Positions 42,158 through 53,706 of a stretch of 64,000 bases of DNA are shown here, one piece after another. The notes below the pieces were generated by a model. The model saw nothing but the letters and a program-made list of their open reading frames with translations, was not told the DNA's origin and made no database searches. The DNA comes from Malonomonas rubra DSM 5091. GTDB taxonomy: Bacteria; Desulfobacterota; Desulfuromonadia; Desulfuromonadales; Geopsychrobacteraceae. Made by a program: the position numbers and the translations under genes. The stretch covers positions 248,001-312,000 of the forward strand of contig NZ_FQZT01000001.1 in NCBI RefSeq assembly GCF_900142125.1, in the 5' to 3' direction. How positions within the stretch are numbered: the first letter of the stretch is position 1; each line of letters starts with the position of its first letter.

Positions 42158-43476
42158 CAACTCAACAACCTGACAATATCGTTGTAAAAAGCGAGGACCA
42201 TCAACATTAACAGCATAGCGATGCCAACCTGCTGAGCCATCTCACGCACGCGGATGGAAACCGGTCGCCGGAGGATCAGCTCGATCAGGTTAAACAGAAT
42301 ATGCCCACCATCGAGGATAGGAATCGGCAACAGGTTGAGAATACCAAGCTGGATCGAGATAAAAGCCAGCACCGACAAAATCGCTGCCAAATCGGTCTGA
42401 GCAGCTTGACCTGCGACTTGAACCACGGTGATCGGACCACCGATATTCTTCGCCGAGACACTACCGCTGAACAGTTTCTGGACAAACACGACCGTCAGCT
42501 CGATCAACTCCCAGGTCCGCTTTGCACCCTCTTCAAAAGCGGCAACAAAACCGTAGCGTTTAACCTCGGTCTGCTGCATCGGAGCAATGCCGATAAGAAA
42601 ATCACCTTCACCATCACGCTGTTCCGGGGTCAGTTCAACAGAGATCGTTTGGCCGGCACGTTCCAGTTGCAGAGGAACTGTTGCGCCTCCATACTGCTGA
42701 ATGACAACTTTCAGATCGTACCAGGTCGCAATTTTCTGATCGCCTATCTGCAGGATCAGGTCACCAACTTGCAAACCGGCTTTTTCCGCTGGCATATTAT
42801 CGGCCAGCCCACCAACACGAGCCTGTTGCATTGGCAACAGGCCGAGGGCCTGCATCCCTTCCAGGCTATTGTTCTCCTCCGGGATTTCCAGCGTCAGCAA
42901 TTTGCCGTCACGTTCTACCTCAAAACGGAGCAAATCACCTGCTGAATTGACAAATGCCTTGTTGGTTTGATTCCAGCTTTCGACCGCCCGCTGGTTGACA
43001 GAAAGAACCTGGTCACCAGCCATAAATCCGCTTTTCGCTGCCTCTGATTCGGCAATGACATGACCGATAACGGCTGGCTCTTCGAGATAGGTCGGCATCT
43101 GCACGCCGGACATGAAAGAAATCGGCAGGATCAGAAATGGCAGAATTAAATTCATCAGCGGGCCAGCAGAAACAATCGCCAGCCGCCGTGAGACCTTCTG
43201 GTCAGCAAAAGAGCGCCTTCGCTCTTCCGGTGTCAGTTCGGCCTCTTCACCATGCTCACCGCTTCCTTCTCCCAGCATCTGCACATATCCCCCCAGAGGG
43301 ATGGCACAGATCAGGTATTCGGTTTCCCCCCACTGTTTGGAAACCAGCTTCGGCCCGAACCCGAGGGAAAAACGCAAAACTTTTACGTTACACCACTTGG
43401 CAACTGCAAAATGGCCAAGCTCGTGAACAAAAACCAGCACCCCAAGCATCAGGATCCCGGCAATTACGGTTGTCAT
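42157..43476 (-). CDS. rseP: Site-2 protease RseP
   Basis: A 439-residue intramembrane metalloprotease: HELGH at 18-22, C-terminal [15 protein letters not shown] with the third metal ligand Asp, and a PDZ region in between ([25 protein letters not shown]; also [18 protein letters not shown]). It cleaves anti-sigma factors and signal peptide remnants in the inner membrane. An upstream in-frame start is rejected: GGAGG precedes this ATG, which overlaps the dxr stop (ATGA). Confidence 0.96.
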
Positions 43477-44633
43477 TTGAGACCTCCATCTATCAAGCTT
43501 CTCGCCTCTCGACGACCCCACCTATCAGCCTGCAGCACTTTGTCGAGCGTTGTCAACTCTTCGCGCTGATGATTTCCCATCACCCTCTCAATTAAACGAG
43601 GGATCCCTAGAAAGCCGATTTTCCCGGCAAGAAAACTATCGACGGCAACCTCGTTGGCAGCGTTCATCACGGCAGGCAAACTATCGCCGACCTTTAAAGC
43701 TTCGTAGGCTAGACGCAGACAGGGGAAGCGTTCGTGATCCGGCGGCTCGAATTGCAAACGACCAGCGGTCGTCAGGTCGAGCGGTTCCTGTTTCAGTGGC
43801 AACCGCTGTGGCCAAGCCAGCGCATAGGCGATCGGTGTTTTCATATCGGGGATACCGAGCTGCGCAATCACCGCGCCATCACGATATTCGACCAGCGAAT
43901 GAACAATGCTTTCCGGGTGGATATGGACATCGATCCGATCGGCAGGCACATCGAATAACCAATGGGCTTCGATCACTTCCAGCCCCTTGTTCATCATCGT
44001 CGCCGAATCGATCGAAATCTTGCGTCCCATATCCCAGTTTGGGTGAGCCAGGGCATCTGCCGGTGTTACCGATTCGAGCTGCTGTAGGCCATGCTTGCGG
44101 AAAGGGCCGCCGGACGCCGTCAATATCAAACGACGAACATCTTGGCTGCGTTGGCCGGATAGCGATTGAAAAATCGCCGAATGTTCACTGTCGACAGGGA
44201 TCATCCTGACCCTCTGCCTTCTGACCTCATCCATAACCAATGAGCCGGCTGCGACCAATGTTTCCTTGTTGGCCAGGGCGATATCCTTGCCTGCCTTAAC
44301 CGCAGCCATGGTTGGCACCAAACCGGCCGCGCCAACGATCGCGGCAACGACCATTTCTACATCAGGATGAGTCGCACATTCTATCAGCCCCTCAATTCCG
44401 TGAAGAATGCGAACCGAGGAGCCGGCTAAACGAACAGAAAGTTCTTCTGCACTACGTGCTGAGGCGACAGTGACCACCTCTGGGCGGAACTGTTCAATCT
44501 GTTTTTGCAGCAGGTCGATATTTTTACCCGCCGACAGCGCAATAACCCGGTACTGTTCAGGGAATTCCGCAACAATCTCCAGAGTATTGACGCCAATAGA
44601 ACCGGTAGAACCAAGGATAGTCAGGTTTTTCAT
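43473..44633 (-). CDS. dxr: 1-deoxy-D-xylulose 5-phosphate reductoisomerase
   Basis: A 386-residue DXR (IspC): NADPH motif [33 protein letters not shown], the metal/substrate segment [13 protein letters not shown], and [10 protein letters not shown]. Second step of the MEP isoprenoid pathway, fitting its place next to uppS. The family starts at this Met; an ATG 24 bases upstream would overlap cdsA. Neither start has a clear Shine-Dalgarno, so the start is uncertain; translation may be coupled to cdsA. Confidence 0.94.
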
Positions 44634-44646
44634 CGAGGTGTCTGTT

Positions 44647-45447
44647 TCAGCAGCCATAACAATACTTGGCCAGAAGATAAACTATGGGGAAAGCAAACAA
44701 CAAGCTATCGAGACGATCGAGAATGCCTCCGTGGCCGGGGATGATAGTCCCGGAATCCTTAACATTGCAAGCACGCTTCAGCAGGGACTCGAAAAGATCA
44801 CCGAGTTGCCCCACGCACCCCAGCAGGAGACCAATCAACAAGCCGTCAATCCAGCCGATCTGAGGCAAAAAGGTTGCTCCAGCAATAAACACAGCCAGGA
44901 CCGAACCGACCAGTCCGCCGATGCCGCCTTCGATACTTTTATTCGGGCTGACCGCAGGGTAAAGCTTTCTTTTCCCTATCTTACTGCCAACAAAATAAGC
45001 GAAGGTATCACAGGCCATCACGACCAGAAGAGCCAAGAAAATCCAGCCCCTGCCATCCTGCAGGGGACGCAGAAGCACAAGCTGCCCCAGCAGAAACGGT
45101 AAGTAAACCAGTCCGAGACAAAGCCAGCCGAGCTTGTTTGGTACAGCAGAAATATCGGGGAGACGGAAAAGAAAAAAGCTTCCGAGCAACAGTAAGATGA
45201 ACGAGTACAGCGGAAACAACAACGCTATCTGCTGAAAATGTAGCAACGGCAAAGCCGCCGCACCGGCAACAGCTGCAAAACGTTGCTCTAAAAGATGGTC
45301 TTCTGCCAGCCCCATGCGGTTGAACTCGAGTAAGGCCAGTAGCAGAACAACAGTAAGGAAAAGGGTAAAGATCAACGGATTGGCAAAAACAACCAATAGT
45401 ATCAGCAGCGGCAAAGCCACCGCTGCTGTCAATATACGCTGTTTAAT
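44647..45447 (-). CDS. cdsA: Phosphatidate cytidylyltransferase (probable AUU start)
   Basis: A 266-residue polytopic enzyme with the CDS signature [12 protein letters not shown] and [33 protein letters not shown]. It makes CDP-diacylglycerol from CTP and phosphatidate. Reading frame options: a TTG at 45498 has no Shine-Dalgarno, would overlap uppS and add 17 residues that do not resemble the family. The codon ATT at 45445-45447 lies six bases after AAGGAG, and begins the family N terminus (KQRILTA). No ATG or GTG exists near this point, so AUU is the likely start, overlapping the uppS stop. Confidence 0.9.
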
Positions 45448-46219
45448 GACTCTCTCCTTCCGGCGATTGAGCAGAAGTCGGCTCCAGTTGATCGTCAATC
45501 AAACCGAAACGACGCTTGCGGGGCCGGTAATCCTCCAAAGCCTTGTGCAGCTCATCGGCATCAAAGTCAGGCCAGAGGACATCAGTAAAATAAAATTCAG
45601 CATAAGCCGCCTGCCAGAGCAGGAAATTACTGATCCGCTTCTCTCCACTGGTGCGGATCAGCAAGTCAGGTTCGGGGATATCTCCGGTATCGAGCAGAGT
45701 TGAAAACTTCCTGTTATCGAAACTATCCAGCTCGATCGTTCCGGCCAGTGCTCCTTCTGCCATTTTTTTAGCCGCCCGTAAAATTTCATCGCGACCTCCG
45801 TACGACAGAGCAAGAATCAGGGTCAGAGTCGTTCCACCAGAGGTTTCCGCTTCTGCTCTTTGAAGAGCCTCGCAGACCGAATCGGACAACCGGTTCCGAT
45901 CGCCGATCACTTGCAGGCGGATACCATTATCAAGCATCTTCTGCCGCTGCGAATCAAGAAACTGAAGCAGCAGTTCCATCAGTGCATCTACTTCCTGTTG
46001 CGGGCGCCCCCAGTTTTCCGAACTGAACGCAAACAGGCTGAGATAACGGATACCAAGGGAAGCACATTCATCCACCACATTGAGAACGGTCTGTACCCCC
46101 TGATGATGACCGGCAACGCGCGGCAACCCCTGTTTTTTTGCCCAGCGGCCGTTACCATCCATGATGATGGCCAGATGCTGCAACGGCGCCTTGTTTTTCT
46201 GCATAACCTGATTTGACAT
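45443..46219 (-). CDS. uppS: Undecaprenyl diphosphate synthase (cis-prenyltransferase)
   Basis: A 258-residue cis-prenyltransferase: HLAIIMDGNGRWAKKQGLPR with catalytic D21, LFAFSSENWGRP, and the C-terminal PEPDLLIRTSGEKRISNFLLWQAAYAEFYF. It makes undecaprenyl diphosphate, carrier for cell wall and O-antigen synthesis. It stands ahead of cdsA, dxr and rseP in the usual order. Confidence 0.97.
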   Translation of the reverse strand: MSNQVMQKNKAPLQHLAIIMDGNGRWAKKQGLPRVAGHHQGVQTVLNVVDECASLGIRYLSLFAFSSENWGRPQQEVDALMELLLQFLDSQRQKMLDNGIRLQVIGDRNRLSDSVCEALQRAEAETSGGTTLTLILALSYGGRDEILRAAKKMAEGALAGTIELDSFDNRKFSTLLDTGDIPEPDLLIRTSGEKRISNFLLWQAAYAEFYFTDVLWPDFDADELHKALEDYRPRKRRFGLIDDQLEPTSAQSPEGESH

Positions 46220-46358: not shown

Positions 46359-46523
46359 TTAGTCGACGATCGCATCAACCGGACAGCTGTCAACACAGGC
46401 ACGACACTCAGTACACTCATCGGTAATGGTGTAAATCTCACCAGATTCAACGATGGCACCAAGCGGGCAAGTATCGACACATGTTCCACAAGCGATACAA
46501 TCTTCGTTAATTTTCAAAGCCAT
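46359..46523 (-). CDS. 2[4Fe-4S] ferredoxin, 54 residues
   Basis: A complete small bacterial-type ferredoxin hidden between frr and uppS. Cysteines at 9, 12, 15, 19 (CIACGTCVDTCP) and 37, 40, 43, 47 (CTECRACVDSCP) give two [4Fe-4S] clusters; the length matches clostridial ferredoxins. Its ATG at 46521-46523 follows GGAGAGTTCCCT. It is a soluble low-potential carrier that could serve Kor or other oxidoreductases; the partner is not shown by context. A terminator lies downstream, so it may be the end of the rpsB-frr transcript. Confidence 0.93.
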   Translation of the reverse strand: MALKINEDCIACGTCVDTCPLGAIVESGEIYTITDECTECRACVDSCPVDAIVD

Positions 46524-52275: not shown

Positions 52276-53706
52276 TTAGTAACGATAGGTATCCGGCTTG
52301 TACGGGCCATCGACCGGCACGCCGAGGTACTTCGACTGCTCTTCGGTCAGCACCGTCAGCTTTGCGCCCAGTTTATCGAGATGCAGGCGAGCAACCTTCT
52401 CATCTAGCTGTTTCGGCAAAACGTAGACCTTGTTCTCGTAGCTGTCTCCATTCTGGAACAGCTCGATCTGCGCCATCACCTGGTTGGTAAAAGAGTTCGA
52501 CATAACGAAACTCGGATGGCCGGTCGCACAGCCAAGGTTGAGCAGACGACCCTCCGCCAGCACGATAACGCCGTGACCATCCTCGAATTCCCAGCGGTCG
52601 ACCTGCGGCTTGATGTTCATCCGCTTGACCGTGCCGGCTTTTTCCATCGCCGCCATTTCGATTTCGTTATCAAAGTGACCGATGTTGCCGACAATAGCGT
52701 TGTTCTTCATCTGCTTCATATGTTCGAAGGTGATGACGTCCTTGTTGCCGGTTGTGGTGATATAGAGATCAGCATAATCAAGAACATCCTCAACCCGCTT
52801 CACTTCATAGCCTTCCATCAACGCCTGCAGCGCGCAGATCGGGTCGATTTCGGTGACGATAACCCGTGCGCCCTGTCCGCGCAGCGACTGGCAGCAGCCC
52901 TTGCCGACATCGCCATACCCGCAGACCACGGCCACTTTACCGGAGAGCATGACATCGGTCGCACGCATGATACCGTCAACCAGCGAGTGACGGCAGCCGT
53001 AGACGTTGTCGAACTTGCTCTTAGTGACAGCATCGTTGACGTTCATTGCCGGGAACAGCAGGCTGCCCTCTTCTTCCATCTGGTAGAGACGATGCACACC
53101 GGTGGTGGTTTCTTCGGTGACACCCTTGATCGAAGCGGCAGTCTTGATCCACTTCTGCGCATCGGCGATGATCGACTTCTCCAACTGGGCGACCAACTCG
53201 CGCCAGTCTTCCGGATCATCCTCGGAGACATTCGGCACAGCATCTTTCGACCACTCGTCCCCTTTGAGCACGTACAGGGTCGCATCGCCGCCATCATCAA
53301 GAATCATATTGGGATACTCGCCGTTCGGCCAAGTCAGCATCTGCTCGGTACACCACCAGTATTCTTCCAGAGTTTCGCCCTTCCAGGCGTAGACCGGGAC
53401 ACCCTGCGGATTGTCCGGGGTCCCGTTCGGACCAACCGCAACCGCTGCAGCGGCATGATCCTGGGTCGAGAAAATATTGCAGGAGCACCAGCGCACATCA
53501 GCTCCGAGTTCAACCAGGGTTTCAATCAGAACCGCGGTCTGAATGGTCATATGCAGTGAACCGGAAATGCGAGCTCCCTCAAGCGGCTTCTGGCCGTCAT
53601 ATTCTTCGCGCAGCGCCATCAGGCCCGGCATTTCTTCTTGCGCCAGAATAATCTCTTTACGGCCCCATTCGGCCAGCGCTAAATCTTTCACCTTGAAATC
53701 GTTCAC
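52276..53706 (-). CDS. ahcY: S-adenosylhomocysteine hydrolase
   Basis: A 476-residue [53 protein letters not shown]-binding [29 protein letters not shown], and the C-terminal [18 protein letters not shown]. It splits S-adenosylhomocysteine into adenosine and homocysteine, regenerating the methyl cycle. The start is GTG with AAGGAG 11 bases upstream. No SAH riboswitch was recognised in the leader. Confidence 0.97.

Follow-up and report, generated by a model that had tools for sequence, protein, structure and literature searches.

A putative AUU, AUC or AUA translation start of cdsA conserved across the Desulfuromonadia

Known non-canonical start codons and their relation to cdsA

The initiation factor IF3 rejects AUU, AUC and AUA starts most strongly, and conserved non-canonical starts are, to our knowledge, known for very few bacterial genes. 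One example is pcnB of Escherichia coli, whose AUU start was reportedly found by Binns and Masters in 2002 to limit expression. Non-canonical starts kept by selection are already known from infC, pcnB, sigR, ccpN and cvfC1. As described in PMC13009471, Staphylococcus aureus uses an AUU start for cvfC1 and AUA starts for ccpN and infC; in poor medium, reporter expression from such non-canonical starts reaches about 10% of that from AUG, and pcnB is cited as another gene of this kind. In Streptomyces, the start codon of sigR is GTC in 32 of 34 species and GTT in 2, is preceded by an extensive Shine-Dalgarno (SD) sequence and has been mis-placed by annotation pipelines; the GTC start is repressed by IF3, and IF3 discrimination against such codons is described in the same source (PMC5472188). 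Purifying selection on AUG is treated in PMC5622118. The AUU start of E. coli infC, which had been named as the known case in an earlier model-made reading of the DNA analysed here (the sequence-only reading), is thus joined by others, e.g., pcnB, cvfC1, ccpN and sigR (PMC13009471 and PMC5472188).

A comparison with these systems shows where the putative start of cdsA fits in. It shares with infC (AUU in E. coli, ATC in Streptomyces, AUA in S. aureus) a conserved AUU, AUC or AUA codon (AUH in the following) behind a good SD sequence, but is mostly AUU or AUC rather than AUA and partly overlaps the stop codon of the preceding gene; moreover, no self-feedback loop of the infC type is expected, because CdsA acts in the membrane as an enzyme of phospholipid synthesis. 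Both sigR and cdsA carry a conserved non-canonical start within a multi-gene operon, whereas sigR represents a regulatory gene with GTC or GTT starts in one genus and a proven IF3 effect, the corresponding effect on cdsA being a predicted one. The genes cvfC1 and ccpN resemble cdsA in combining conserved non-canonical starts with strong SD sequences, yet these are other genes of another phylum, and their SD sequences are extended in S. aureus, while that of cdsA is strong in an ordinary way. The AUU start of E. coli pcnB also has its counterpart in cdsA, but 27 loci of pcnB-like genes of the class, most of which contain an in-frame ATG in the leader and whose starts are unresolved, gave no hint of an AUH codon conserved as the start. 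Finally, cdsA of E. coli K-12 is the same gene, likewise located after uppS (ispU) and provided with a weak start, which is annotated as TTG; UUG, however, counts among the three canonical codons and lies outside the AUH class rejected by IF3. We know of no report of a non-canonical start for cdsA, and none was found in a search of an open-access library. The gene is mentioned nowhere in the main text of PMC2700814.

The cdsA locus of Malonomonas rubra

The window, i.e., the whole analysed stretch of 64,000 nucleotides from Malonomonas rubra DSM 5091 (contig NZ_FQZT01000001.1, positions 248,001 to 312,000), contains uppS, cdsA and dxr on the minus strand in their usual order. The relevant features are the following, in window coordinates:

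43473..44657, minus strand: dxr, adjoining cdsA downstream, canonical start (control)
44647..45447, minus strand: cdsA (phosphatidate cytidylyltransferase), 266 amino acids counted from ATT, PF01148, full-length alignment in relatives
45418..45420, minus strand: GTG at cdsA codon 10, in frame downstream of ATT, rejected as start
45430..45432, minus strand: TTG at cdsA codon 6, in frame downstream of ATT, rejected as start
45443..45445, minus strand: uppS stop codon TAA, one base common with the putative cdsA start (ATTAA)
45443..46219, minus strand: uppS (isoprenyl transferase), ATG start, TIGR00055 above cut-off
45445..45447, minus strand: putative cdsA start codon ATT, aligned with AUU, AUC or AUA in 157 of 161 class members
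45454..45459, minus strand: putative SD sequence AAGGAG of cdsA, 6 nt from ATT, anti-SD duplex of -9.4 kcal/mol
45496..45498, minus strand: TTG 51 nt upstream of ATT, inside uppS and without SD sequence, rejected as start

The encoded protein matches the PF01148 profile with 215.7 bits (cut-off 24) and scores 100.8 bits against the NCBIfam model PRK11624 of the E. coli-type enzyme, below the equivalog cut-off of 385 bits; it belongs to the same family as the E. coli-type enzyme, outside the enterobacterial equivalog model. The uppS-cdsA junction reads GGAAGGAGAGAGTCATTAAACAGCGTATATTGACA, and the overlap claimed by the sequence-only reading is indeed present, with ATT (45447-45445) and TAA (45445-45443) sharing one T. 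The leader consists of AAGGAG (45459-45454), the spacer AGAGTC and the ATT, which is followed by AAA CAG CGT ATA TTG ACA (IKQRILTA). The claim of a good SD sequence also holds, since the hexamer stands six bases before the ATT and the calculated anti-SD pairing amounts to -9.4 kcal/mol, compared to -2.9 kcal/mol before the TTG at 45498, as far as which the cdsA frame is open upstream. This TTG does lack an SD sequence and overlaps uppS as previously noted, but it is not the sole alternative, because the TTG at codon 6 and the GTG at codon 10 are in frame as well.

The signal from a single genome is not decisive, since a crude scan of the window flagged 10 of 52 open reading frames, including cdsA, in which some non-canonical codon was preceded by a better SD sequence than any canonical one; it is the conservation among relatives that settles the matter. 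The use of the same scan for finding further AUH starts in the window was abandoned as too noisy without relatives.

Two other features of the region may be recorded here. A 54-residue two-cluster ferredoxin-like protein (CIACGTCVDTCP ... CTECRACVDSCP) is encoded on the minus strand between frr and uppS (window 46359-46523). A strong stem-loop (GCAGCAGCGG...CCGCTGCTG, window 45400-45433, minus strand, z -1.61) follows a few codons past the cdsA start; it is also strong in one relative (G003), but was discarded as a feature of this start, as most genomes of the same genus do not share it and it leaves no mark in the mean of 139 rows.

The cdsA start codon in related genomes

A search with the CdsA protein among 147 genomes from the same order and class yielded matches in 143 genomes of 24 families, and the start region was read in all of them; the four genomes without a match (G006, G043, G083, G122) were left out, and three fragmentary genes with their starts present (G076, G038, G023) were kept. 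The codon aligned with the window ATT is ATT in 109, ATC in 27 and ATA in 3 of the 143 relatives (139/143). Another 18 class members, added to widen the sampling of the same three outer families outside the order, all show an AUH codon (11 ATC, 4 ATA, 3 ATT), which brings the class total to 157 of 161 (112 ATT, 38 ATC, 7 ATA) without any ATG at the site. The conservation extends over a long evolutionary distance (24 families), and most rows of the class alignment of the start region retain KQR. The comparison therefore supports an AUU start of cdsA, as the sequence-only reading had proposed along with a check of the codon in related genomes, but shows a class-wide state of cdsA instead of a rarity confined to a single genome. 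It also bears on the correctness of the base: a sequencing error hiding a true ATG has a negligible probability with the identical codon class in 157 of 161 members, and on this alignment neither such an error nor a peculiarity of one genome can account for the AUU. The exceptions are four GTG users among the 143, with the GTG at the site itself (G121, locus L099), one codon before it (G060, L137; G118, L133) or two codons before it (G086, L140). Three of these four belong to one family, so the switch to GTG is rare and clustered.

As AUU, AUC and AUA all encode isoleucine, the conserved codon might be an ordinary internal one behind an upstream start, such as the TTG at 45498 in the window, and a canonical codon is present upstream in 48 of the 139 AUH-containing relatives, e.g., an ATG at codon -5 in four members of one family (G071, G132, G133, G134). 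This is highly improbable, because in 91 of the 139 (20 families) the frame contains no ATG, GTG or TTG from the closest preceding stop up to the AUH codon, and 24 of these have this stop within five codons; furthermore, the upstream codons vary in position, the TTG of the window lacks an SD sequence, and 113 of the 138 relatives with an SD word of at least 4 nt carry it 6 or 7 nt from the AUH codon (words of at least 5 nt: 126/139). Note that six genomes offer a canonical codon at a distance of one or two codons before the AUH, which could be used instead (GTG in G040 and G074; TTG in G018, G139 and G143; ATG in G068). Initiation downstream, for which TTG at codon 6 and GTG at codon 10 are both available in the window, is scarcely credible, as these codons lie at least 21 nt beyond the SD sequence, their use would remove the conserved KQRI, and 22 of the 139 (10 families) lack a canonical codon both upstream and within the next 24 codons. 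With canonical codons missing in this way, a non-canonical start appears forced in many genomes of the class, short of initiation far within the coding sequence.

The overlap of the two genes in the window could also be taken to indicate that CdsA is made as a fusion to UppS via frameshifting, but the chance of this is extremely small, given that the uppS stop of the relatives may lie as much as 191 nt ahead of the cdsA start or as much as 16 nt past it and that in-frame stops are common just upstream of the AUH codon. A more serious objection to a selected weak start is that the T of the AUU may be retained only because the uppS stop begins with it, since an AUG at cdsA would open the uppS frame by changing the T common to ATT and TAA. 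The uppS stop could be placed by a strict motif in 126 of the 143 genomes (the remaining 17 all being AUH), and start and stop overlap in 63 of these 126, all of them with ATT and TAA and the window among them. We regard a mere by-product of the overlap as unlikely, because 59 of the 63 genomes without overlap still have AUU, AUC or AUA at the codon, and none has AUG. On a quickly made tree of the 143 rows (parsimony, simple model), the overlap was gained or lost 20 times and the codon changed 19 times, 16 of these changes occurring within AUU, AUC and AUA and only 3 involving GTG users. The share of ATT at the start (78%) exceeds that among internal isoleucine codons (45%, p = 7e-13); this excess was discarded as a mark of start-codon selection and is not counted as evidence, because most of it can be attributed to the uppS overlap, the genomes without overlap having ATT in 33 of 59 cases.

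The neighboring genes start in the canonical manner, as far as they were found around the cdsA loci (uppS 29/29, dxr 26/26), and so do rpmI and rplT (ATG in 30/30 each) in 30 infC loci, in which infC itself has ATA in 27 and ATC in 2 cases, with one unresolved. Apart from infC and cdsA, AUG is therefore used in the genomes of the class as elsewhere. These infC loci (L147-L176, including L158 of the window genome, G000:C19 around 52917-53126) appear to represent a clade-wide AUA version of the self-control start of IF3. The median anti-SD duplex energies are -10.2 kcal/mol for cdsA, -11.2 for dxr, -9.4 for rplT, -5.6 for uppS, -8.6 for rpmI and -11.8 for infC. The SD sequence of cdsA does not differ from those of dxr and rplT, is stronger than those of uppS and rpmI and weaker than that of infC; judged against dxr, rplT and infC, it is good but ordinary, rather than unusually strong or extended.

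Outside the class, 79 genomes of the phylum were read (19 loci and 60 regions, several families being represented more than once), and a canonical codon within CdsA residues -7 to 3 was present in 66 of these 79, compared to 33 of the 161 inside the class (Fisher p = 2.9e-21). The best-scoring 30 cdsA loci from the phylum of Komagataeibacter, which we take to be the Pseudomonadota, include 27 with a canonical codon and 3 unresolved, paralogue-like ones. As judged by eye, cdsA seems to begin with a CTG preceded by a good SD sequence in some loci outside the class, which represent at least two separate families (L198, L200 and L203 from one family; L233, L254 and L262 from another; L247), and two other families of the phylum contain candidates for independent ATT starts (L241 in G382, L194 in G159).

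Proposed mechanism and significance

Taken together, it is very likely that cdsA is initiated at the AUU under guidance of the AAGGAG and that this represents a conserved weak start kept by selection, which would be inefficient and IF3-sensitive as judged from its codon. Translation would begin at 45447-45445 with initiator tRNA, directed by the SD sequence six bases upstream, and ribosomes finishing uppS at the overlapping TAA may help to direct initiation in the window genome. The good SD sequence would provide for ribosome binding, while the weak codon would let only a fraction of the bound ribosomes proceed. IF3 probably discriminates against the cdsA start; because AUU, AUC and AUA are the codons it rejects most strongly, initiation should be inefficient and the output lowered, resulting in less CdsA per mRNA than of its operon partners, UppS among them. 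A decrease in free IF3 would then raise the CdsA output, in the same direction as for infC. The class-wide AUU/AUC start suggests that weak initiation is kept to limit or tune the amount of enzyme. Selection would maintain the weak start, with the overlap acting as an added constraint on the T in half of the genomes. The retention of AUH codons without overlap (59/63) and the few switches on the tree (3) lead us to think that weak initiation as such is favored, as does the fact that a stronger start is only one transversion away.

For specialists, the surprise lies in the breadth of the phenomenon, which affects a gene of lipid synthesis in nearly every class member read. A practical consequence is that gene callers limited to ATG, GTG and TTG would assign CdsA a wrong N terminus in genomes of the class, as would the open reading frame call in the window, which takes the TTG. 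If the proposed reading is true, the start-codon weakness of an essential lipid gene would be a regulatory trait of long evolutionary standing, perhaps tying membrane synthesis to IF3. A wider version, which we offer as a tentative and rather doubtful possibility, is that the class possesses a small IF3 regulon operating via AUH starts and comprising at least infC and cdsA, by which the first committed step of phospholipid synthesis would be tied to initiation capacity, with selection keeping cdsA off AUG class-wide even without overlap. If this were true, ribosomes outrunning IF3 would lead to faster synthesis of both IF3 and CDP-diacylglycerol synthase, and the membrane supply would thus be matched to growth.
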